DNA of 24,534 bases from a virus. The stretch is from IMG/VR virus record IMGVR_UViG_3300025674_000373, positions 1 through 24,534 of that record. One strand, written 5' to 3'. A program made the translations under genes and the position numbers. Position 1 is the stretch's first letter. Each line of letters begins with the position of its first letter. Below the pieces are notes generated by a model. The model was not told the origin of the DNA. It did not search any database and saw only the letters and a program-made list of their open reading frames with translations. Shown piece after piece: positions 5,920 through 22,334 of the stretch.

Positions 5920-6146
5920 TTGTTTTTTTCGTATTCTTCGCGGGTCATCCATTTTTGATCACCCCAGCGTTTAAGAGATTTTTGTTTCTCTGTTTTTTTT
6001 CCGGTGTAACCACCACCTTTTTCTTTATACTGTTGAGCAAGAAGTTGAGCCTTTCGAGCACTCCATTGACCTGGCTTTCCTCCTTTGCTACCAGCCATAA
6101 TTTTGTCTTTGAGACGCTCCCGCATCTCAGGTTTTGTGTAAGCCAT
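5916..6146 (-). CDS. Basic small protein of the DUF5872-like family
   Basis: This 76-residue protein (about one quarter Lys/Arg) contains MAGSKGGKPGQWSARKAQLL, then QYKEKGGGYTGKKTEKQKSL, then RWGDQKWMT. This matches what I recall of the DUF5872 family, found in phages and some giant viruses; function unknown. The high charge and GGKPGQWS turn suggest nucleic-acid or protein-interaction roles. ATG at 6146 overlaps the upstream stop by one base (TAATG). Family assignment is from memory of the motif. Confidence 0.75.
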   Translation of the reverse strand: MAYTKPEMRERLKDKIMAGSKGGKPGQWSARKAQLLAQQYKEKGGGYTGKKTEKQKSLKRWGDQKWMTREEYEKNK

Positions 6147-6817
6147 TAAAAATATTTTGCAGTAGGAACAGATGTAATTGCTTTTGCAATAGTCATGGGA
6201 TCAAGGCTTAACTTCGTTCCCCCAAACATTTTATCAATATAGTTTTTTAATTGTTGCTGAGGATTTAAGATTGCAGTGCTATCTTCATCTTTTCCTGTCT
6301 GAATTAAAATATTAATTGACTTAGGTGCATCAGAAGACGCAGGCTGTTGTGGTGAAGGAAATTGTGGTGTTTGTTGATTGGTGGGAGAGGCTGAGGCAAT
6401 CGTTGTTTCTTTACCGCCTTTGGTATGAAGCAATTCAATTTCATAGCCCTCAGGGGTCTCAATCGTTCCTAAACCTTTACCAGGTTTAAAAGAACCTGCA
6501 CCTGTCCAATAAATTGGGGTGCCTCCAGGAATTCCAAAGTCAATACCTTTATGAAATGTAGAAGCACCAGCTGTAGGCGCTTTGCGTGCTCCGTACCCGG
6601 ATGTTACTTGGAAAGCTGGAGAAAACCCGTCTTTTGTTTGTTGGTATAGCGGTGTTTTTTTATCTCCAATTAAAAGATTTTGCAGACCACTACGCCACGT
6701 TGACGGATCAATGTATTGTCCTGCTTTACGAACACGAACATCTAAGTGGGCTCCTGTTGTAGGAAAAATATCCTCTCCAGGTTTAGCAACATATCCAGCA
6801 TGAAGAATACCCGGCAT
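6146..6817 (-). CDS. M23/LytM-like metallopeptidase with permuted motif order and C-terminal tag
   Basis: The protein is 223 residues from ATG 6817, two bases after the upstream stop (a TTG at 6823 is the alternative). Residues about 73-131 read as the start of an M23 endopeptidase: TSGYGARKAP, the zinc motif FHKGIDFGIPGGTPIY (H89, D93) and ETPEGYEIELLH. The motif that normally ends M23 domains (GPHLHFEVR..G..vdP) appears instead at residues 22-40 as GAHLDVRV..AGQYIDPSTW, with Asp for the second His. The domain therefore looks circularly permuted. A Pro/Gln linker (about 145-165) leads to a C-terminal module (INILIQTGK....DPMTIAKAI...AKYF) shared with the adjacent transglycosylase. Likely a virion-carried or lysis peptidoglycan peptidase; the Asp substitution leaves activity uncertain. 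Confidence 0.75.
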   Translation of the reverse strand: MPGILHAGYVAKPGEDIFPTTGAHLDVRVRKAGQYIDPSTWRSGLQNLLIGDKKTPLYQQTKDGFSPAFQVTSGYGARKAPTAGASTFHKGIDFGIPGGTPIYWTGAGSFKPGKGLGTIETPEGYEIELLHTKGGKETTIASASPTNQQTPQFPSPQQPASSDAPKSINILIQTGKDEDSTAILNPQQQLKNYIDKMFGGTKLSLDPMTIAKAITSVPTAKYF

Positions 6818-6819
6818 AA

Positions 6820-7551
6820 TCAACCAAAATAATTAACAGACTCAACATCAGTTAAGTTCTTTGCTAATTCTAATGGACTTGGAACAAAAGATTGATCTTG
6901 TTTTGCATTTGCTCCACGCATAAACCGCATCAAAAAATCAATTGGACTTAGTTCGGCTGATTGTCCTTTGCCTGTCACAATGATATTAATATTTGGAGTT
7001 GAAGGGCTTTGTTGTAAAGGTTGTGATGGGGTTTGTTGCTGAGGTGCGCTAGGACCCTGTCCTGCAACTTGTTGTTTCTGTTGTTCGTAGTATTTATACA
7101 GGTCACCGAGTTGTTTAGAAGGCTGCCCGTAATAGCTTCCTCCACCAGATGTTGGCAGTGAGGCCCACTCTGGAGCAAGCTTGTTAATAACAGTTCCGAA
7201 TTTTTCTCCTTTGAGGAATGGTTCTAATGCGCCACGACGTTCAATTAAATGAAGAGCAGCTAAGTCTTGTGATTTAGGATCAAATCCAGAAAGTCCTAAA
7301 GCTTTTTTAGCACCTTGCCAGGTACCAGGTAGGAATTGATAAGCACCTGCTGCAGCACTGTTGTAACCACCACTACTGATAACTTTGTCAGGATGTTTCC
7401 AGCCTTTAGAAGTATCAAATTTTCCACCACCAAACATGGTTTGATACCCCGCTTCTCCTGGAGTACCTTCTGCATATCTAATGGTATTTAGTAGTGAGCG
7501 GATTTCAGGTTTCTGAAGAAGTTGTTCATACCGCTGGCGTGTTGTAGACAC
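6820..7551 (-). CDS. Lambda R-type lytic transglycosylase (GH104-like) with C-terminal tag
   Basis: The catalytic domain (about residues 7-160) closely follows the lambda endolysin R pattern: RYAEGT with candidate catalytic Glu28, FGGGKF, HPDK, SAAAGAYQFLPGTW, LGL.GFDPKSQDLAALHLI, RRGAL, and APEWASLP. It cleaves the glycan strand of peptidoglycan, by family knowledge. I chose GTG at 7551 (243 residues), four bases after the upstream stop, because it places the domain at the same distance from the N-terminus as in lambda R; an ATG at 7602 or an even earlier start would overlap the upstream gene more. The C-terminus adds a Gln/Pro linker and a 55-residue module (NINIIVTGKG...SPLELAKNL...VNYFG) not found in lambda R but shared with the next gene. 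This points to virion association. Confidence 0.85.
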   Translation of the reverse strand: MSTTRQRYEQLLQKPEIRSLLNTIRYAEGTPGEAGYQTMFGGGKFDTSKGWKHPDKVISSGGYNSAAAGAYQFLPGTWQGAKKALGLSGFDPKSQDLAALHLIERRGALEPFLKGEKFGTVINKLAPEWASLPTSGGGSYYGQPSKQLGDLYKYYEQQKQQVAGQGPSAPQQQTPSQPLQQSPSTPNINIIVTGKGQSAELSPIDFLMRFMRGANAKQDQSFVPSPLELAKNLTDVESVNYFG

Positions 7552-7555
7552 TGGC

Positions 7556-8035
7556 TTAACGGAAGTTGTATTCGAAGTAGAACCGGGTTCCGACTGCAAC
7601 ATCTGCGGGGCCAGGTAAAGCTTGAATGAATTCAGCGCCTTCCCGCTCAAACCGATACCGGGCTTGCATAGGGTTTCTATAATTAGCGACGTACAGATGA
7701 AGAGCTAAGCGATCGGTTTCATAAAGATAAATGTCCGTCCAGGTTTTAAGTGTTTCTTTAAAATCAGTCGTTGTAATGGTACGGTCAACATCACCAGCAA
7801 TATTCTCTAAACGGTTACGAGGAACAGCAAAGTTATTTGCACTGCCAGTCATATCGGTGCGCTTTTCAGCTTCATCACACCGGCTGACTTGTTCGACCAA
7901 TTTCTGATACCAGAATGAATCTGGTACATTGTTCATAGCTTCCTCAAGTCGAGCTAAATCGCCAGCTGGGATTGATGTGGTGTTATATCCCAGATGCCAA
8001 CGAATTTTTGATTTAAGAAAACTATCAAGCTGCAT
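7556..8035 (-). CDS. Putative head-tail connector/virion protein
   Basis: This 159-residue protein has a helical N-terminal half (LDSFLKSKIRWHLGY, then ARLEEAMNNVPDSFWYQKL, VSRCDEAEKRT) and a beta-like C-terminal end (ADVAVGTRFYFEYNFR). No motif is diagnostic. Its position after the capsid genes, its size and the helix-then-strand composition fit a head-completion or connector protein. It begins with ATG overlapping the upstream stop (TAATG at 8035-8037) and runs into the transglycosylase gene. Function is inferred from place only. Confidence 0.68.
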   Translation of the reverse strand: MQLDSFLKSKIRWHLGYNTTSIPAGDLARLEEAMNNVPDSFWYQKLVEQVSRCDEAEKRTDMTGSANNFAVPRNRLENIAGDVDRTITTTDFKETLKTWTDIYLYETDRLALHLYVANYRNPMQARYRFEREGAEFIQALPGPADVAVGTRFYFEYNFR

Positions 8036-9371: not shown

Positions 9372-10514
9372 TCAAACAATAGTGAACGCAGTGGTCACGA
9401 AGTCCTTATTCAGGTTCGCAAAGCCAGCGTACAGCTGCCAAATCAGAATGATGAAGCGGCTGAAGTCATCATTGTTGTTGATGAGCACCTGAGCATTAGG
9501 ACCACCGATACCCACGCCCACAGCCTGAGGACCGAAGAACAGTGCAGGAGGAGTGTCGTGAGAAATTGCACCAGCACCGTCGCCAATGTCAACAGTGATG
9601 GACTTGGAGGGGAAGTTGGTGGATTCGAAGAAACGCACACCTTCAAACACAAAGCCAGAAGGCATGGTGGGCTCACCGCCAACAAACTGAGCTTGGCCAT
9701 ACTGACCGCCACCGTAGATAGCAGCATTGGGGTTCATGCCGCTCATGATCGGGTTACCAGCAGCAAAGCCGGGGTAACGAGCCACTTCACGGAAGCCCTG
9801 ATCAGCACGCAGATCCTTCATGAAGGAGGGATCAGCAATACAACGATAGTAACCATCAGCAAAGACGGGGACGTTGCGCTTGCGGAGGCTCTTCACCACG
9901 TCAAGCAGGTCAGTCTTCACATTGAACTTATAACGCTCAGAGGCATACTCAGTAGCACTATAAGCAGTCAGCGTGGTAGCGCCAGTCTTAGCCTTACCGT
10001 TGGGATAGTAGTAACCACCTTGGGTGTCAGAGGACTGACCACGGGACTCAGACTTGAACAGCTCATCCAGGAACACACGATCGCGCCAGCGGCGATAGTC
10101 GTCGAGGAGGGTCAGCGAACCGATGGACTGGTGGAACATGTTGAGGTTCCCGGTGTCCAGCAGCAGACGCTGAGCAGTCATCAGAGTCTCACGAGCAATC
10201 TTGAAGGTGCTCGGGAGGTTAGCATTGTTCGGGTCAGCAGGACCGGTGTACTCACGGAGAGACACCAGCACTTTGTCCTTAACAATCGACCGGCTGTTAG
10301 CGGTACCGATGGTTTGATCCTGGGTACGCTCACGGTTGGTCTTCGTACCGGGGTTGCCCCAGAAACGATAACGGTCGAGCTGAACGGTTTGACCCGGCTG
10401 TTTAGTAAAGTCGTGGACTACGACGGGCTCGCAAGCCATCTCCACGATATAAGCTGGATGGGGACGGTACAGCTCCGCACCCAACAGCTTGGGAAAATCG
10501 TTATCAATAAACAT
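9372..10514 (-). CDS. Major capsid protein
   Basis: This 380-residue, soluble protein has the size and composition of an HK97-fold capsid protein and occupies the capsid position after portal and scaffold. Visible features are an N-terminal arm (FPKLLGAELYRPHPAYIVEM), a long segment DFTKQPGQTVQLDRYRFWGN, an extended charged loop, a spine-helix-like stretch TFKIARETLMTAQRLLLD, a P-domain-like VFADGYYRCIADPSFMKDLR, and the end NDDFSRFIILIWQLYAGFANLNKDF. No cleavage site can be read with certainty. The gene has a leader of about 100 bases with a strong -10 box and two stem-loops. Codons appear biased towards C-ending synonyms relative to the neighbours, as expected for a highly expressed gene. 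I did not identify the exact family. Confidence 0.85.
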   Translation of the reverse strand: MFIDNDFPKLLGAELYRPHPAYIVEMACEPVVVHDFTKQPGQTVQLDRYRFWGNPGTKTNRERTQDQTIGTANSRSIVKDKVLVSLREYTGPADPNNANLPSTFKIARETLMTAQRLLLDTGNLNMFHQSIGSLTLLDDYRRWRDRVFLDELFKSESRGQSSDTQGGYYYPNGKAKTGATTLTAYSATEYASERYKFNVKTDLLDVVKSLRKRNVPVFADGYYRCIADPSFMKDLRADQGFREVARYPGFAAGNPIMSGMNPNAAIYGGGQYGQAQFVGGEPTMPSGFVFEGVRFFESTNFPSKSITVDIGDGAGAISHDTPPALFFGPQAVGVGIGGPNAQVLINNNDDFSRFIILIWQLYAGFANLNKDFVTTAFTIV

Positions 10515-10522
10515 GTTGGTTC

Positions 10523-10544
10523 TTCAGCGTAAGGTGTAGCTGAA
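10523..10544 (-). promoter_or_regulatory. Small hairpin before the capsid start codon
   Basis: TTCAGC (10523-10528) and GCTGAA (10539-10544) pair across a 10-base loop, ending nine bases before the ATG at 10514. It is the second stem in the capsid mRNA leader. Confidence 0.4.
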
Positions 10545-10548
10545 ACCA

Positions 10549-10610
10549 GGACCCTAAAGATCCATGGATAATCGGTTCGAAACCGATGTTGCCTCTGGAA
10601 CTTTAGGTCC
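10549..10610 (-). promoter_or_regulatory. Structured 62-base leader element of the capsid mRNA
   Basis: The outer arms pair GGACC with GGTCC, CTAAAG with CTTTAG, and TCCA with TGGA, giving 14 bp with one bulge (10554) and one mismatch (10560/10600). Inside is a perfect hairpin, ATCGGTT CGA AACCGAT (10571-10587). The element starts within a few bases of the start site predicted from the TATAAT box at 10626-10621. A 5'-stabilising or processing structure is inferred; no U-run follows, so it is not a standard terminator. Confidence 0.55.
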
Positions 10611-10620
10611 CATTAATAAA

Positions 10621-10629
10621 ATTATAGCA
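10621..10629 (-). promoter_or_regulatory. Extended -10 promoter for the capsid transcript
   Basis: TGCTATAAT (minus strand, 10629-10621) is a perfect TATAAT with the extended TGN element. No good -35 hexamer is present, as is common for extended -10 promoters. It lies in the largest gap of the window, 106 bases before the capsid ATG. Confidence 0.55.
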
Positions 10630-10655
10630 ACACTTACTTACTACGATTAATAATC

Positions 10656-11321
10656 TTAAACTAATTTAGAAGCAAAAGACCTTAAAAACCTTCCAGTACC
10701 TACACCTGCAAGAGCACTAACAGCTGGTGCAATGCCGTACCCTGCCGTTTGAAAAGCAGCGGGTGCATGAGAAACAGGGTAACCAGCAGCATGAAGCATA
10801 TTGGTTCCACGCCGACTTGCTTCAAACTCGCTAATTAAACGACCACTATTGTTTAGATAGTTAAGACCCAGTGCTAGAGATGTTGCCCTTCTCATAGAGG
10901 GTGATGTAGCACCAATAGCAATATTTGCTAGCCCCATAACGTTGGGGTTAATTCCACCATAGGTATGTTTCTGAATCCACTGCAGCGGTCCACCACCAGC
11001 TTCAATTGACTGGTGCCCAAGCTCATGGCCAAGGGTAAACTGACTAGCTTTATCAACATTCAGTGAAATGGAATTTTCTCCAATCCGTGAATAGCTGGCC
11101 CCAGAAGGTTGAAAATTTGCAGTTACTTCTGGTGATAAACCTGTTTGTTTTTCGTACTGCCCAATAACGTTTTCAAAACCAGGTTGTGCAAAAGCACTAC
11201 CGGTTTCTTTCATTCCACGTTCTTGATATTGCTTGATCGCTGCATTTTGCAATGCATTAGCGCCGGTCATTGCGCCTAAGGCAACAGCTCCTTGCAATCC
11301 GTATTTAACAGCAGGTTGCAT
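10656..11321 (-). CDS. HExxH zinc metalloprotease, YugP-like
   Basis: This 221-residue protein contains FTLGHELGHQSIEAGGGP, with the zinc motif H99-E100-x-x-H103, and ISEFEASRRGTNML at about 163-176, where E165 or E167 would be the third ligand. The pair HE[LV]GH ... EFxASRR is the signature I recall for the YugP-type neutral zinc metallopeptidases (PF04298). The N-terminal (KYGLQGAVALGAMTGANAL) and C-terminal (YGIAPAVSALAGVGTG) ends are hydrophobic and Gly/Ala-rich and may touch membrane. The gene sits between scaffold and capsid genes, where tailed phages usually encode a serine-type prohead protease; no such protease was seen. It starts at a TAATG overlap. Head maturation is an inference; a role in DNA ejection is an alternative. 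Confidence 0.75.
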   Translation of the reverse strand: MQPAVKYGLQGAVALGAMTGANALQNAAIKQYQERGMKETGSAFAQPGFENVIGQYEKQTGLSPEVTANFQPSGASYSRIGENSISLNVDKASQFTLGHELGHQSIEAGGGPLQWIQKHTYGGINPNVMGLANIAIGATSPSMRRATSLALGLNYLNNSGRLISEFEASRRGTNMLHAAGYPVSHAPAAFQTAGYGIAPAVSALAGVGTGRFLRSFASKLV

Positions 11322-11527
11322 TAATCTGCAGGATCAAAATAAATTTCTTGTCCTGCAGCTCCAGCACGATTCCAATAACTGTATTCGTTAGGAGGAACCG
11401 GACCAAGCCTTGAATAAGGATTGTAATCCAAAGGCTGAAGAGTATTCTCTGGATTCCGTAATTCAGGAATCAGCTGTGTAATGTAAGCTTGAAGCTTTTC
11501 TTTTGCTTCTTTTTTATTGTTTGACAT
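11321..11527 (-). CDS. Small soluble unknown protein, 68 residues
   Basis: An N-terminal charged helix (SNNKKEAKEKLQAYITQLIP) is followed by a Pro/Asn/Tyr-rich, probably extended tail (LDYNPYSRLGPVPPNEYSYW) ending IYFDPAD. No Cys and no membrane segment. Its start overlaps the upstream stop (TGATG) and its stop overlaps the protease start (TAATG), so the three are one translational unit. A partner or substrate of the protease is conceivable, from position only. Confidence 0.68.
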   Translation of the reverse strand: MSNNKKEAKEKLQAYITQLIPELRNPENTLQPLDYNPYSRLGPVPPNEYSYWNRAGAAGQEIYFDPAD

Positions 11528-12243
11528 CAGTTTTCAGCTCCTTCACCACCCATCATGCCAAGAAGTGCAGTGCGAAGCATACGTTGGCGATCCTGAGCGA
11601 TTTTTACATCTACATTCTGGCGCAACATCTGCAAGCCCAAAGGGGAACCTAATTGATTTAATGCAATGTAACTAGCTTGCAAATCACTAGGCATTATATT
11701 GCCGCCAAGAGTTCCTGGCGTATCCTGTGTGTAAGTGAGTGGGTTATTCATTTGATAACCCATCAATGCATGAATACCAGAATTAGCACCCATGCCACCA
11801 ACAAAAGCACCCGTCATTGCAGCACCTGCTGCAGCTAGTCCTACATCTCGTTTTGCCATTGCGCCTTTAGCATTAGTTGCAACACCTTGCCCAAACTGTT
11901 GCATTGATTGACCTACGCCACCAATTGCTTCTGCTGTTGCACCACCTAAATTACTGACACCTCCACCAAGCGATTCTAAAAATCCGCCAACTTTAGCTGC
12001 AAGAGGATTTTGAGTTAAAGTTTTGGCTGCTTGTGAACCAGTAAGCCTAACTACATCTTCTTTAGCTCCTAACATTCCAACTCTTTGCCCAGCACTTTGA
12101 ATTTGTTGCCCAGAAACTCCAGCTACTCCAGTTAAACCTGAACTCATTCCAGCAACTCTTTTACCTTGTTTTTCAATACCTCTTGCAATACCACCACCCA
12201 AATAAGCTGCGGCAGTACGTGCAGATTCCGGAAGCATTGCCAT
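11527..12243 (-). CDS. Gly/Ala-rich internal-virion-like protein
   Basis: From ATG 12243 the protein has 238 residues. It is very rich in Gly, Ala and Gln with alternating small residues (AAYLGGGIARGIEKQGKRVAG; LAAAGAAMTGAFVGGMGANSG is a likely membrane-inserting stretch near the middle). The C-terminus is more ordinary helix (QNVDVKIAQDRQRMLRTALL). An earlier GTG at 12276 lies inside a terminator hairpin, so I reject that start. The composition is like that of the proteins at 18454-22334 and fits an internal or ejected virion component. Confidence 0.65.
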   Translation of the reverse strand: MAMLPESARTAAAYLGGGIARGIEKQGKRVAGMSSGLTGVAGVSGQQIQSAGQRVGMLGAKEDVVRLTGSQAAKTLTQNPLAAKVGGFLESLGGGVSNLGGATAEAIGGVGQSMQQFGQGVATNAKGAMAKRDVGLAAAGAAMTGAFVGGMGANSGIHALMGYQMNNPLTYTQDTPGTLGGNIMPSDLQASYIALNQLGSPLGLQMLRQNVDVKIAQDRQRMLRTALLGMMGGEGAEN

Positions 12244-12256
12244 ATTAGTTATAAAT

Positions 12257-12284
12257 AAAAAAGGGGCAGTTCTCACTACCCCTT
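12257..12284 (-). terminator. Intrinsic terminator after the scaffold gene
   Basis: Read on the minus strand, AAGGGG-T-AG and CT-G-CCCCTT pair around a six-base loop, and the stem runs straight into TTTTTTATTT. This is a standard GC stem plus U-tract. It lies after the scaffold-like gene and only 14 bases before the ATG at 12243. Confidence 0.65.
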
Positions 12285-12311: not shown

Positions 12312-13301
12312 TCATTCCATTACCAGAAGCTTCTGGCGGAACACACCGGGGTTGCGTTGAGCTTGAGACAGATAGCGCCAGGCATTAGCTGGGTCCCGAT
12401 CAGCAACTGCACCAAAGTTATTCCAGAAATTACTTGCATCCATGTCTAGCTGAGGGCTAGGAGGAACAGGCATATTCTGGCGTTCAAACTGCTGAGGAGC
12501 GGCAGCAACAGGAACGGTCATTGCAGCTTCTTGAGGAGCATAAGCCATCTCCTGAGGCTGAGCTTGTGCATCTTGAACGGGATAAGGACCGTTGGGACCA
12601 AAGAATTCACAAGTGTAATCAGCTAAAACGTCCGGATCTGTCAGAATCGTTTCATAAGCTTGATGTTCTTGCGCCAGTTCTTGAAGCAGTGCCACAGATT
12701 CAGTCAGTTGCTCATAACGAGCAATTAACGCATCCTCAACTGTGCAGGCGTAATTGTTAAGTACGGCAGGTGCATCAGCACCAAAGTGGTCAAGAATTTC
12801 AAGACTTTCCGGACTTACCCCGTTTGCTAGGAGTTGTTGTGTCGTTATTTCCTGCGAGGTTGGGGAAGAGTTGGGCGAGTAACCCTGGCTGGAGGGATAA
12901 GTCGGGGCTGCCGAATTGTTGCTGTACCCCACGCTCTGTTGGGAACTGAAGCTGGCCGGGTCGATTCCTTGCGTCGGTGCGGACTGTTGACCCTGGAACG
13001 GGAATTGAACTGGAGAACTCAGGAGCGATACCACCCGATTGAACGCCTCCTTGTAAGGGTTCTCCTGTGTAGGTTGCGCTTGCGGGTACGACTGGATAGG
13101 GGCGTAAGGGGCTGCTGAGATCTGCGCCTGCATCTGCGGGGCTGGAGCCTGCGCCGATTGGTAAGGTGCTACCCACTGACTCGTTGTTGCTATCGGAGCC
13201 TGTGCTGCTGTCTGTTGTGCTACCGGAGCCGCGTAGCTGCTCGGCGGGGTCGAATATTGTTGGGGTGCCGATTGGATCGGCGCTGCGGTATCTGCCTGCA
13301 T
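12312..13301 (-). CDS. Putative capsid scaffolding protein, 5' half overprinted on portal gene
   Basis: This 329-residue protein has a disordered Gln/Ala/Pro/Ser-rich first half, then a helical section (SPESLEILDHFGADAPAVLN; VEDALIARYEQLTESVALLQ; EHQAYETILTDPDVLADYT), a short FFGPNGPYP turn, a second Gln/Pro/Ala stretch, and a helical end (DRDPANAWRYLSQAQRN, FRQKLL). A helical middle with flexible flanks and a basic helical tail, placed between portal and capsid, fits a scaffolding protein. ATG 13301 has a good site (AGAGG, six bases upstream), and no ATG, GTG or TTG start lies early enough after the portal stop. The first 168 codons therefore overlap the portal gene in another frame. The overlap is GC-rich compared with its surroundings. 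Confidence 0.72.
   Translation of the reverse strand: MQADTAAPIQSAPQQYSTPPSSYAAPVAQQTAAQAPIATTSQWVAPYQSAQAPAPQMQAQISAAPYAPIQSYPQAQPTQENPYKEAFNRVVSLLSSPVQFPFQGQQSAPTQGIDPASFSSQQSVGYSNNSAAPTYPSSQGYSPNSSPTSQEITTQQLLANGVSPESLEILDHFGADAPAVLNNYACTVEDALIARYEQLTESVALLQELAQEHQAYETILTDPDVLADYTCEFFGPNGPYPVQDAQAQPQEMAYAPQEAAMTVPVAAAPQQFERQNMPVPPSPQLDMDASNFWNNFGAVADRDPANAWRYLSQAQRNPGVFRQKLLVME
12799..13301 (-). other. Overprinted region: portal 3' end and scaffold 5' end
   Basis: Two open frames on the same strand share 503 bases, 168 codons of scaffold and the last 167 of portal. Both products are low-complexity here, one Ser/Gly/Thr/Pro-rich and one Gln/Ala/Pro-rich. The DNA is visibly GC-richer than the rest of the window, as expected when two frames avoid stop codons. 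Confidence 0.7.
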
Positions 13302-15033
13302 AGGTTACCTCTTTCTGGAGACTTTCGAGTGTTCTGTAAAGGAATGGCGTCAAATCGAGACGCGGATCAGCCGCCAGGGGGAGATCTGGACGCTGGGGGT
13401 GAGGTGTCCGCATTTCTTGATTGATGAGATCAAGAAAGGCTGAATACGCTCGTTGCACTTGTCCAACCATCCGGAACGGATAACCAGATAGCATTTCTGC
13501 AACCTCGTCATCTGTTTTGGAGGGGAACAAGTACTTAAGTGCCTCAATACTATCAACACCCAATTCTTGTAGGTTACGTGTGAAGATAGATTGATTAACT
13601 TTGTCTTGCGGAGTGTCCTCATAAACAGGACCCATCCACCGCCAAAGAACTGTACGATCACCATCGGGTGCCAAACCAATGACACCTTCAGGAATTTCTT
13701 TGGTTTCAAAAGCCTTGTTAAGAGCTTTATCTAAACCCTTTTCATACTTTTGTTTGGCCTTCTCGTGTTTTGCTAAAGCTACCTCATCTGGATTCTCTGG
13801 TAATACTGGATATGTTAACCCAGATGCTACTGCCAATGATTTACGGAAGAGCTGTTCTTCCTGATAAATCATTAATTCAAAACAGCGGCAAATACCATAG
13901 GTATAAAGTTGTAAACACTTTTTCTTTGCCGTAGCACTGACACGACCATAAGCAGACTTGATCTCTGTTGCAGTTACATTGGTAATTGAAAGATCATCAA
14001 TACCACCTAATGCTAAACGGATTTCAGAACGTAACTGATCAACGTAACGAGATTGATCTGTACTGATTGCATTAGGTGTAATAAAACCAACACGATCTGT
14101 CGGTTCTAAGTTGGCAATAACTCTTGGAACACGGAGCCCCCCGCCAGGTAAACCAATGTATCCGGCTTGCTGACGATCTGTTGGATCTTGTTTAAACGTA
14201 GAGCTTGATAAAGAAAACTCAGATTGGAAACCAGATTGACTTGAAATACTAGGACGTTGAACAGCTCCGTCTTGACCAGATTCAACAATGTCGTGTTTTG
14301 GACGAGAGGACAGAAGCGTGGGGTTACCAAAGAATGAAAGGTTTGCTCGAATATTTTTAACCATCTCATCATGAGCAATGATCTGGTTAGCAAGCCATTC
14401 AAATTCTCCACTGCCGTCAGTACCGAAAGCATCTGGATTATTTAAAACTTCAACACAAGGAATGAATCCTAAGCTGTTTACAGCAATCTTGTTGTTATTA
14501 AGATTTAAACCAACATCAACAGAATCAAAAGTTAATTCTTGCTCACTATGAAGTTCTTCAATCTCACTTGGAGTAATCCTTAAACGCACATAACGTTTAT
14601 CGGTTATTAATCCAACACCACCAAATCCACGACTGGATTTAACTTTGTAGGCATAAATAATGATGACTTCTTCTAACTCACCATCAGAAGAGTAATATGC
14701 CCGATAAGCATCCTTATCAAACCAATAGAGACGATAAGTCTTTTTAGTTGGGCGGATATAAAACAAACCCTTACCATAAGCTAGAAACCGATCCCAAATA
14801 GAATCAAGCCGTGCATCTAACTTATTAAACTTGATAACCTGTTCAACAAAGTCAAAACGTTGCGTACCAAAGTTATCTTGTTTTGGGTAAAACTCAACAC
14901 CCTGACGTACCCCAAACATTTTCATCTGGGATAGATGGGCATTAATGAGCATAGTGTCTGCTGTGCCCGTGGATTCACGGTTCACAACAGCTTTGAGCAT
15001 TCCTTCTAAAATGGATTGACTCGATGTGCTCAT
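12799..15033 (-). CDS. Portal protein with long disordered C-terminal extension
   Basis: This 744-residue protein lies two genes after the large terminase. The first ~575 residues are ordered with portal-type features: a wing-like N-terminal part (MKMFGVRQGVEFYPKQDN, WDRFLAYGKGLFYIRPTKK, YRLYWFDKDAYRAYYSSDGE), then GEFEWLANQIIAHDEMVKNI and a helix-rich stretch TEIKSAYGRVSATAKKKCLQ, followed by WRWMGPVYEDTPQDKVNQS. Residues 578-744 are a low-complexity Ser/Gly/Thr/Pro tail coded in the stretch shared with the scaffold gene. Portals form the dodecameric DNA gateway at one capsid vertex. Assignment rests on position, size and overall pattern; I cannot name the family. Confidence 0.8.
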   Translation of the reverse strand: MSTSSQSILEGMLKAVVNRESTGTADTMLINAHLSQMKMFGVRQGVEFYPKQDNFGTQRFDFVEQVIKFNKLDARLDSIWDRFLAYGKGLFYIRPTKKTYRLYWFDKDAYRAYYSSDGELEEVIIIYAYKVKSSRGFGGVGLITDKRYVRLRITPSEIEELHSEQELTFDSVDVGLNLNNNKIAVNSLGFIPCVEVLNNPDAFGTDGSGEFEWLANQIIAHDEMVKNIRANLSFFGNPTLLSSRPKHDIVESGQDGAVQRPSISSQSGFQSEFSLSSSTFKQDPTDRQQAGYIGLPGGGLRVPRVIANLEPTDRVGFITPNAISTDQSRYVDQLRSEIRLALGGIDDLSITNVTATEIKSAYGRVSATAKKKCLQLYTYGICRCFELMIYQEEQLFRKSLAVASGLTYPVLPENPDEVALAKHEKAKQKYEKGLDKALNKAFETKEIPEGVIGLAPDGDRTVLWRWMGPVYEDTPQDKVNQSIFTRNLQELGVDSIEALKYLFPSKTDDEVAEMLSGYPFRMVGQVQRAYSAFLDLINQEMRTPHPQRPDLPLAADPRLDLTPFLYRTLESLQKEVTYAGRYRSADPIGTPTIFDPAEQLRGSGSTTDSSTGSDSNNESVGSTLPIGAGSSPADAGADLSSPLRPYPVVPASATYTGEPLQGGVQSGGIAPEFSSSIPVPGSTVRTDARNRPGQLQFPTERGVQQQFGSPDLSLQPGLLAQLFPNLAGNNDTTTPSKRGKSGKS
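13308..13312 (-). promoter_or_regulatory. Ribosome binding site AGAGG for the overprinted scaffold start
   Basis: AGAGG lies six bases before ATG 13301, inside the portal coding frame. It supports true initiation there rather than a chance open frame. Confidence 0.55.
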
Positions 15034-19052: not shown

Positions 19053-19841
19053 TCAGAAGTAACGATACTGGGTAGCGCCTGCTTGGCCAATATTACCAAG
19101 GAAGCCTTCTGCCATGCGTTGTGCACCAAGCTGACCTTGCCGACGCATTGCAGAATCGGTAGCAAGAGCAGTGCTTAGTTGTGCAGCTTTTGCATCACGA
19201 ATCAGATCAGCTTCTTTAGAACGCTGTTGATAGGCTTCCTGGTAAGGAGCATAACGTAAAGCGTTTTGCAGACTTTGAAGATATTGTTGGTTTTGAAAAC
19301 GAAGTTGGCTCTGGATGCGGCCAGTTGGATCAGCATACTGAACAGCATTAGGTGCACCGTACTGACCTAAATCAGTTGGCGTAAACTGAGTACCGCCGTA
19401 ACCAGGGACTCCAGGGAGGTCAGGCATCCCAATCCCAGTTGCCTGCATACCTAAACCAGCAGCGCCACTAGCAGCTTTAGCAGCTTGACCTGCCAGCTTT
19501 GCTCCCGCTGCTCCACTCGGACCAGCCAAAGCTGCCGTTACAGGCAGACCAACAAGACCAGCAGTACCTAAACCCGCAGCAGCAGGAATGCCGTATTGAA
19601 GGACATTGCCAAGAGGATTACCGGCTTGGACCAGCTTGGGTGCCATCTTACCAAGGGCAGTTTTACCCAGAAGCCCACCGGCCATGCGTTGACCTAAACG
19701 GCCAATGCCACCAGTTAAAGTACCGCCTGTTAAAGCACCTAAAGCAGTTGCACCTAAATCACCACCACTTTGCCGGTAGCCTTGTACACCGCCAGTTAAA
19801 GCACCAACCCCTGCAAGAATTGGCATTAAAGGTAAAGCCAT
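19053..19841 (-). CDS. Gly/Ala-rich membrane-active virion-type protein
   Basis: Of 262 residues, the first 140 alternate Gly, Ala and Leu (LPLMPILAGVGALTGGVQGY; TALGALTGGTLTGGIGRLGQ; GIPAAAGLGTAGLVGLPV is the most hydrophobic). The second part is Gln/Tyr/Ala-rich helix (RFQNQQYLQSLQNALRYAPY) and the protein ends TQYRYF. Gly-zipper-like spacing suggests insertion into membranes, as in ejection proteins of short-tailed phages, but no homologue is recognised. AAGAAGGA precedes the ATG by 11 bases. Confidence 0.68.
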   Translation of the reverse strand: MALPLMPILAGVGALTGGVQGYRQSGGDLGATALGALTGGTLTGGIGRLGQRMAGGLLGKTALGKMAPKLVQAGNPLGNVLQYGIPAAAGLGTAGLVGLPVTAALAGPSGAAGAKLAGQAAKAASGAAGLGMQATGIGMPDLPGVPGYGGTQFTPTDLGQYGAPNAVQYADPTGRIQSQLRFQNQQYLQSLQNALRYAPYQEAYQQRSKEADLIRDAKAAQLSTALATDSAMRRQGQLGAQRMAEGFLGNIGQAGATQYRYF

Positions 19842-20443: not shown

Positions 20444-21654
20444 TACTGATTAATGTAAGGAGTAAGTTGCTGCCAACTGCGAGCGTCAGGTTGCTCTAAA
20501 GCTTCGCTAGCAGATTGGAAAGAGCCATACTTGTGCTTTAAATATTCTACAGGTTGTTTTTCTTTTAATTGTTGTTCTGCTCTTTTATTGAAAGCAGTTT
20601 GTGTTGCTTGCTTAGCAAGATATCCTGCACCTAAACCTGCAAGAACAATACCTGCTGAAGTAGCAAGGCCAGGTGTTTTAAGAACTTCTGGTTTACGCAG
20701 TTGGCGCGCAAGATCTTGTAAGTCTTCAACAGCACGTGGAGTTACCTTGCCAAGTTTTTCTCCCGCTTTGGCAACTGCTGCTTCTCTACTAATTTCACCA
20801 GCAGCACGCTGCATTGGTGCTGTTGTTCCCATGAAAGTTCTTGCTTCTTTCATAGACTCTGGCAATGCTTTATAGAGAGCACCTGTAGTGCCCAATGCTG
20901 TTGCAGTTCCTACTGCAGTAGAAGCAGTTACAGGGAAACCAAAGTATTGAATTTCTGGTTCATTCAATCCTTGAGCAGTACCACGCAAAATACCAAGAGG
21001 TCCAACAAAAGATTGAGTTTGTGGATCAATCTTACCTAGACCAGAAGGTTTTAAATACTTATAGCGTAAATAAGAACTATAAGTGGGATACGCAATCTCA
21101 GGACGCTCTTCTTTGAAAGTAGAATAAGGCAGCGGATCTCCGCGACGACCTGTGAAATAACGCAGCACAGATTCAGCAACTGGACTAGAAGATGTTCGGC
21201 CAGTTGGATCTTCTTCTTTAGAAACTGGGAGAATACTTTTGTAACCAGCAGGACGACCACCTTTTAATGGGTTACCAACTAAACCGCCTAAAGCTGCAAT
21301 AGCAAAAGGAGTGCTGCGCCCAAGAAGATCTGTTGTAACTGGATCAAGCCCCAGCTTCTCACCAGCAGCTCGACCAACGTTACGCCCAACAGCAAGTGTA
21401 TGGTTTAAAAACCAATAGGTGCCACGACTGGCATCAGTAAGAACATCAAGAGTTCCTGTAGCTGCAGCTAACGGTAGATTACCTTGCTTTGCATAACCAA
21501 CTGCTTCTTTAAGCCCACCATATACAGCTCGAGGACCTGTACCAGTTCTTCCAATATTTAAACCTTCACCAAGATAAGTTCCAAACTCTTTACCAAACTT
21601 ATTTAGAGCTTGTCCACTATTGGAAAGATAATTTGTAATATTTGCAAAGCGCAT
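20443..21654 (-). CDS. Large Gly/Ala-rich virion-type protein, 403 residues
   Basis: It contains amphipathic segments near the start (YLSNSGQALNKFGKEFGTYL), a hydrophobic stretch DLLGRSTPFAIAALGGLVGN, a polar middle with several Tyr (YPTYSSYLRYKYLKPSGLGK), another apolar stretch ASTAVGTATALGTTGALYKA and a late hydrophobic helix GLATSAGIVLAGLGAGYLAK, followed by charged helix. No catalytic motif is visible. Its size and its place between similar proteins favour an internal virion or ejection protein. Coupled by TAATG at both ends. Confidence 0.7.
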   Translation of the reverse strand: MRFANITNYLSNSGQALNKFGKEFGTYLGEGLNIGRTGTGPRAVYGGLKEAVGYAKQGNLPLAAATGTLDVLTDASRGTYWFLNHTLAVGRNVGRAAGEKLGLDPVTTDLLGRSTPFAIAALGGLVGNPLKGGRPAGYKSILPVSKEEDPTGRTSSSPVAESVLRYFTGRRGDPLPYSTFKEERPEIAYPTYSSYLRYKYLKPSGLGKIDPQTQSFVGPLGILRGTAQGLNEPEIQYFGFPVTASTAVGTATALGTTGALYKALPESMKEARTFMGTTAPMQRAAGEISREAAVAKAGEKLGKVTPRAVEDLQDLARQLRKPEVLKTPGLATSAGIVLAGLGAGYLAKQATQTAFNKRAEQQLKEKQPVEYLKHKYGSFQSASEALEQPDARSWQQLTPYINQ

Positions 21655-22334
21655 TAGAAGTACCTAGCTGTAGGAGTACTTAGCATTTGGTTTGCAATAG
21701 CAAACGGATCGCCACCACCACCTTGGTTAGAAGAAATGTGATGAATATAGCTAGGGAACTTATAGTTCCTGGCATAAATTAATTCTAAACGACGTTGATG
21801 AGCTAAAGCCTCAGGATCCATTCCTTCTTGATTAGTCTGAACTACAGGAGGAATTACTTGTTGAATCGGCATATCTCCAACAATCCCCTGTTGACTTCCC
21901 GGCTCAGGAACAATTCCACGTGTAACAGCTTGCGCCAGGGGATCAACAACAGCAGCGCCGCCTGCAATACCAAGACCTAATTTACCGGCACCTGCCGTTA
22001 AACCTGCAAGCCTTTGAGCTGCACCAGGTTTCAGCCCCATGTTTCCTAAACGACCAGCAAGCTGCCCTTGCATTTGACTAACACCTGGGTAAAAAGATTT
22101 GACCCCAGCTAAGACACCGCGCTCAACCGGTCCACTAAGAAGACCAATGCCAGCAGAACGAATCACTGACTCACCAAGCGGTGCAGGTGCCCCAGTTAAT
22201 GCAAGTGATAAACCCTGTTCTAAAGCAGCGTTGATGGCTCCAGTTTTAATTGATTCTCGCGCCAGGGCTTTACCGCCTTGCGGCATCGCAATCGGAAGTA
22301 AACGTTGACCAGCTAAACGTAAAGCGTTAATCAT
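21654..22334 (-). CDS. Gly-rich virion-type protein with C-terminal tag
   Basis: The 226 residues begin with a basic amphipathic helix (INALRLAGQRLLPIAMPQGG) and Gly/Ala/Leu-rich segments (GAGKLGLGIAGGAAVVDPLA is the most hydrophobic), pass a Pro/Gln linker, a charged helix (DPEALAHQRRLELIYARNY) and Gly-rich spacer, and end with DPFAIANQML..PTARYF. That ending matches the ends of the M23-like peptidase (DPMTIAKAI..VPTAKYF) and the transglycosylase, while the rest is unrelated. ATG 22334 overlaps the upstream stop (ATGA). Confidence 0.7.
   Translation of the reverse strand: MINALRLAGQRLLPIAMPQGGKALARESIKTGAINAALEQGLSLALTGAPAPLGESVIRSAGIGLLSGPVERGVLAGVKSFYPGVSQMQGQLAGRLGNMGLKPGAAQRLAGLTAGAGKLGLGIAGGAAVVDPLAQAVTRGIVPEPGSQQGIVGDMPIQQVIPPVVQTNQEGMDPEALAHQRRLELIYARNYKFPSYIHHISSNQGGGGDPFAIANQMLSTPTARYF

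Follow-up and report, generated by a model that had tools for sequence, protein, structure and literature searches.

Genes for the serine prohead proteases (families S78, S14, S49 and S77) lie between the scaffold or portal gene and the capsid gene. The only phage metalloprotease for which a literature search yielded a proposed part in head maturation is gp46 of Vibrio phage XM1, a Spartan-like protein suggested to be the prohead protease of that phage (PMC10457771). Zincin-like metallopeptidases share a core order of helix, three strands, HExxH helix and glutamate-bearing helix (PMC5512222). The gene described here occupies the same neighbourhood as the serine protease genes and differs from them in catalytic type. 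It lies in a virus record of 24,534 bases, the whole of which was analysed and is called the window below. Our favoured reading, held with moderate confidence, is that it is an accessory gene of one phage clade and encodes a gluzincin zinc metalloprotease, remotely like YugP and M48, that is likely a minor virion or ejection protein or is directed at the host membrane.

The window is an S-EIV1-like cyanophage; its portal, its capsid protein and the C-terminal part of its terminase are 52%, 70% and 67% identical, respectively, to those of the cultured freshwater cyanophage S-EIV1 (KJ410740), and all of its assigned structural genes are on the minus strand. The portal gene (12799–15033, with PHROG portal matches) is followed by a scaffold-like gene of 329 codons (12312–13301), recognised by its position and composition and conserved in 145 loci, whose 5' part lies within the portal gene. 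Next come gene A, a 249-codon ORF for a variable Gly/Ala-rich protein (11527–12276, with its true start probably the ATG near 12243), gene B of 68 codons (11321–11527), the HELGH gene of 221 codons (10656–11321) and the major capsid protein gene (9372–10514, PHROG major head protein, E = 3.5e-16), all of them (−). The HELGH gene starts with an ATG that overlaps the stop codon of gene B in the sequence TAATG. The preliminary description had placed this gene between scaffold and capsid genes and coupled it to a 68-residue gene; this is borne out, its coordinates and motif positions are exact, and the 249-codon ORF also intervenes. Short genes akin to gene B occur in protease-free phages too. The HELGH codons (residues 99–103) are at 11013–11027 (−) and those of a second motif, EFEASRR (residues 165–171), are at 10809–10829 (−); this ORF is the sole one with an HExxH motif among the window ORFs of at least 60 amino acids.

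Beyond the 3' end of the protease gene is an extended −10 promoter element of the capsid gene, TGCTATAAT (10621–10629, −). Of 94 distinct regions upstream of capsid genes, 85 have the −10 element and 64 have it in the extended form, of which about 0.01 would be expected per region. Between it and the capsid gene is a hairpin that forms a structured 5' leader of the capsid mRNA (10540–10620, −), with a fold z-score of −3.4 for 10500–10660; the hairpin at 10540–10615 matched neither a tRNA nor an Rfam family and is read as the capsid leader. A terminator-like hairpin followed by TTTTATTTAT is also present at 12261–12284 (−), just past the scaffold gene and near the start of gene A, and a similar hairpin and T run are visible in the related locus L150. 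Sites of this kind are no more frequent than in shuffled sequences.

About the first 500 nt of the scaffold-like gene are also portal sequence, read in the +1 frame (12799–13301, −). Among 103 distinct relatives, the window included, the scaffold start is ATG and its frame +1 in all 103, an SD-like site precedes it in 102, and the median overlap is 524 nt. Synonymous divergence of the portal gene (median pS) is 0.096 inside the overlap versus 0.553 outside it, and is lower inside in 242 of 242 pairs, which is strong sequence-based evidence that the portal tail and the scaffold head are dual-coded. We note that the corresponding S-EIV1 region (L002:21751–24474, about 59287–62010 of KJ410740) has in GenBank a truncated scaffold CDS, and a capsid gene overlaid by an antisense CDS and a C-terminal fragment; the intact ORFs there encode a capsid protein of 383 and a scaffold of 325 amino acids.

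The HELGH protein belongs to no family recognised at present. Used alone as the query, it had no match in Pfam, PHROGs, the GenBank phages or IMG/VR, no family model in Pfam, PHROGs or NCBIfam matched it significantly, bacterial and archaeal genomes yielded no relatives when scanned, and no isolate carrying the gene was found; its relatives were reached solely through portal, capsid and profile searches. Fourteen homologues, the most distant of them about 23% identical, were aligned; the residues that never vary among them include H99, E100, L101, G102, H103, E165, A168, G180, Q191 and Y195, and R170 is nearly invariant. HELGH itself is kept in all 24 homologues from scaffold-to-capsid regions. 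The protein diverges fast, with 30–72% identity to most relatives whose capsid proteins are 92–98% identical, and its pairwise dN/dS is 0.02–0.24. Invariant residues and such dN/dS values despite this divergence make a functional enzyme the simplest reading, and the gene product is probably, on these comparisons, a catalytically active metalloprotease. That the motif is decorative and the protein a catalytically dead structural component is very improbable in our estimation; the lack of a significant family-model match and the predicted nature of the activity are compatible with it, but all four catalytic positions (H99, E100, H103 and E165) are invariant among homologues of 23–37% identity, whereas most other columns vary. 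The gene defines an unrecognised family of phage gluzincins with invariant catalytic residues.

An AlphaFold model built on the homologue alignment (pLDDT 93.2) starts with two helices, the N-terminal one long, which are followed by three strands, the HELGH helix (94–109) and a helix that carries E165 (143–178); another helix forms the C terminus. The three strands (65–69, 77–79 and 84–88) form a sheet that precedes the HExxH helix, and the downstream glutamate thus sits on a helix separate from that of HELGH. The model supports a gluzincin-type (clan MA) fold and active-site type, in which H99 and H103 are the predicted histidine zinc ligands, E100 the predicted general base and E165 the likely third ligand. 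Structural matches found with Foldseek include selecase, abylysin, IrrE, BlaR1, and phage M48 and polyvalent proteins, all with weak E-values (the best in the PDB being 0.11). About 70 residues are superposed at 3–4 Å on the minigluzincins selecase and abylysin and on M48 and M56 gluzincins; these differ from the phage protein in that it has long additional helices at both ends, there is no significant sequence match, and the Foldseek E-values are above 1. With the zincin-like metallopeptidase domains of polyvalent phage proteins (PMC5512222) the HELGH protein shares its predicted core order and its occurrence in phages, and several polyvalent proteins are among the viral structure matches to the model; unlike those domains, it is a stand-alone protein of 221 amino acids with no other domain match and no effector fusion.

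The preliminary description had likened the active site to that of YugP (PF04298, MEROPS M65). As regards fold and active-site type this holds. In YugP, as in the phage protein, the HExxH motif is followed some 65–70 residues on by EF-x-A-S-x-R and then by a helix rich in small residues, and EFEASRR aligns with the EFNASxR of real YugP proteins, both in the alignment and by profile comparison, with order and spacing alike. A profile of 83 YugP proteins is in register with the phage family at each of the two zinc motifs (P = 8.6e-5, probability 60 with a wide alignment and 25 with a close one); two unrelated pairs compared in the same way gave P = 0.1 and 0.19. An approximate YugP sequence served as bait for this YugP set, and most of the annotated matches are named zinc metallopeptidases. 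Strict membership of PF04298 is not supported by the HMM searches: the PF04298 model has no match to the protein at E up to 10, hmmscan gave none, and our own HMM of the 83 YugP proteins gives the phage proteins no significant score. YugP differs also in having strongly hydrophobic helices. Hydropathy predicts no clear transmembrane helix in six members of the phage family, whose best 19-residue windows are at most 1.57 (none above 1.2 in the window protein), compared with 1.3–2.5 in two YugP proteins. Among other metallopeptidase families, Peptidase M48 (PF01435) gave sub-threshold matches to 4 of 21 homologues (best E = 0.019), and none of the 21 reached its cut-off. The sequence comparisons suggest a remote kinship with YugP, and the protein probably resembles a YugP-type gluzincin and works like one.

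When IMG/VR was searched with portal and capsid sequences, about 150 loci were recovered, 106 of which have a distinct scaffold-to-capsid region. A HELGH homologue is present in 24 of these regions and absent from 82; the divergent members L186, L187 and L188 were added by profile searching. Mapped onto a portal tree (86 rows), head-site copies fall in 21 of the 24 rows of one clade and in none of the 62 others. Many relatives whose capsid protein is 85–97% identical have no HELGH gene at the head site, and the sister phages L150 and L186, with portals 79% identical, differ in the gene and share 78 of the first 82 capsid residues. The isolate S-EIV1, whose genome is complete at 79.2 kb, and the relative G009 (77.6 kb, capsid protein 92% identical) contain no HExxH ORF of at least 90 amino acids and no profile match to the family. 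Of the remaining match-free records, many are fragmentary and cannot prove absence.

That the gene has merely been relocated in phages without a head-site copy was considered, and two profiles and the HExxH ORF scan show this to be false for S-EIV1 and G009; it is true for G007 and, in the form of a paralogue, for G008. G007 (capsid 92% identical) has a head site without the gene and a divergent copy beside its DNA polymerase gene, on the strand opposite to its neighbours. A paralogous family with the pattern HE[FL]GH ... E-E-A-L-A-[ST]-R, related to the head family by profile comparison (P = 1.3e-5), is represented beside the DNA polymerase gene of G001, which has a head copy as well, and near that of G008, which has none. 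In the main clade the gene is always in the structural module, adjoining gene B, and in one locus (L018:11149–12555) two tandem, diverged HELGH genes of 222 and 242 codons lie between gene B and the capsid gene. In relatives this pre-capsid site also holds HNH genes, and LAGLIDADG genes are found at, near or within the start of the capsid gene. Judged from gene content across these loci, the head-site location is shown to be a site of gene turnover between gene B and the capsid promoter, and its occupation by the HELGH gene to be optional; the latter is probably an accessory gene of one S-EIV1-like cyanophage clade.

This distribution bears directly on the idea, advanced in the preliminary description, that the HELGH protein takes the place of the prohead protease. 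The gene lies where prohead protease genes lie, but it is not present wherever this capsid type is made, and with 82 of 106 regions and S-EIV1 lacking it the prohead maturation reading is not supported. Lack of the HExxH motif in close relatives had been named as counter-evidence; the finding goes further, in that most relatives with an 85–97% identical capsid protein are missing the whole gene at the head site. The remark that no serine protease was seen is correct: searches found no S78, S14, S49 or S77 protease in seven phage records, HELGH-less ones included, and the HELGH protein itself belongs to none of these families. Since the HELGH-less relatives lack such enzymes equally, their absence does not mark the HELGH gene as a substitute; the lineage probably assembles its heads without an enzyme of this kind. 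These observations suggest that no recognised maturation protease takes part in the assembly of S-EIV1-like capsids, and the HELGH protease is probably not a step required for the maturation of this capsid type. A capsid protein matured by a protease would be expected to have a removable N-terminal domain. The N terminus here is short and does not vary, whether or not the phage has the gene, but the AlphaFold capsid model has a pLDDT of just 30, and no solved structure matches the capsid protein by sequence.

A narrower proposal is that the protein is the head-maturation protease of its own clade, with scaffold, protein A or portal as its substrate while the prohead is assembled. A metalloprotease would then do what serine proteases usually do. 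The place of the gene between the scaffold and capsid genes in the main clade is in keeping with this, as are the failure to find an S78, S14, S49 or S77 protease, the proposal for XM1 (PMC10457771), and a gene A that, in every HELGH locus where it was recognised, is longer and has a Gly/Ala-zipper segment (a pattern confounded by ancestry). The main clade has kept the gene in this position throughout, and its closeness to the capsid gene could be the sign of a head role in these phages. Against it stand the relatives with 85–97% identical capsids and no gene at the head site, the absence from S-EIV1 and G009 of both an HExxH ORF of at least 90 amino acids and a known prohead protease, the near-identical capsid starts of L150 and L186 and the capsid N terminus that is unchanged regardless of the gene. 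The copies outside the head module in G007, G001 and G008, the tandem pair in L018, and the arrival of HNH genes at the same site and of LAGLIDADG genes at the capsid start likewise speak against it, and so does the fact that the capsid gene is served by a separate promoter and structured leader, both of which lie downstream of the HELGH gene. We consider it quite improbable that a gluzincin has been added to head assembly in one clade, where it would process scaffold or protein A; if it has, head maturation would be optional and of recent acquisition, and no part of the core process. The idea of head maturation by a metalloprotease, put forward in the preliminary description as a new type, is not wholly new in view of the XM1 proposal, which likewise concerns a metalloprotease suggested as the head protease of a tailed phage. 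That protein is Spartan-like and the HELGH protein YugP-like, the XM1 role is likewise only proposed, and in the present case the gene is missing from relatives whose capsid is almost unchanged. The HELGH case argues against assuming that a protease encoded beside a capsid gene is a maturation enzyme.

What, then, might the enzyme do? One zinc ion would be bound through H99, H103 and E165, and with E100 as general base peptides would be cleaved. The protease would be made late, with the assembly genes, genes A and B among them, and its long Gly/Ala-rich helices may rest on a membrane or against the Gly/Ala-rich protein A. It would most likely act as a minor virion, ejection-associated or host-membrane-directed protease. 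The specific assignment to the virion or to ejection is tentative, and is argued from position, composition and analogy; the weights given to it and to the alternatives discussed here are judgements and were not computed.

A more particular version of a virion role is that the enzyme processes a minor virion or ejection protein such as A or B, in phages with the long type of A and B only. The order A-B-HELGH in the main clade and the co-variation of gene A length with the HELGH gene agree with this, and so does the P1 protein DdrB, which bears such a domain and is proteolytically processed before packaging (PMC5512222). The co-variation, however, follows phylogeny, and L119 and L150 break the pattern in having long or hydrophobic A genes without a HELGH gene at the head site, so the longer gene A was not taken as evidence for a substrate; we regard processing of A or B as unlikely. 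Equally doubtful is an unpackaged, host-directed late protease whose attack on, for example, a host membrane protein would serve lysis, superinfection exclusion or defence evasion. Its accessory distribution, its rapid divergence relative to capsid and portal, the G007 copy among replication genes and the effector role suggested for zincin-like metallopeptidases in phage polyvalent proteins (PMC5512222) would all suit such a role, but the main-clade gene is always in the structural module, adjoining gene B, and the host target is hypothetical. The virion or ejection role is the one we would place first.

Several other features of these phages deserve mention. An ArdC/IrrE-like HELGH protein is encoded outside the head module at L209:9068–10012, L188:12795–13811 and L204:23–337; the L209 copy matches PF06114 (E = 9.8e-5) and PF08401 (E = 0.0019). 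The capsid gene of L187 (3677–7327) is in at least five pieces, encoding residues 4–31, 32–54, 54–88, 88–148 and 145–353, with a LAGLIDADG-like ORF between pieces, and is read as one capsid gene with several introns. Four different window proteins, encoded at 6146–6823, 6820–7650, 19053–19841 and 21654–22334 (all −) and including M23-like and lysozyme-like proteins, have similar C-terminal tails (PTAKYF, ESVNYFG, QYRYF and PTARYF). Their homologues in G001 and G005 end in PTANYFA, PVTNYFA, PTNYFA, PTNYFK, QYRYF and PTTRYF, and the shared tail is possibly a C-terminal targeting tag.
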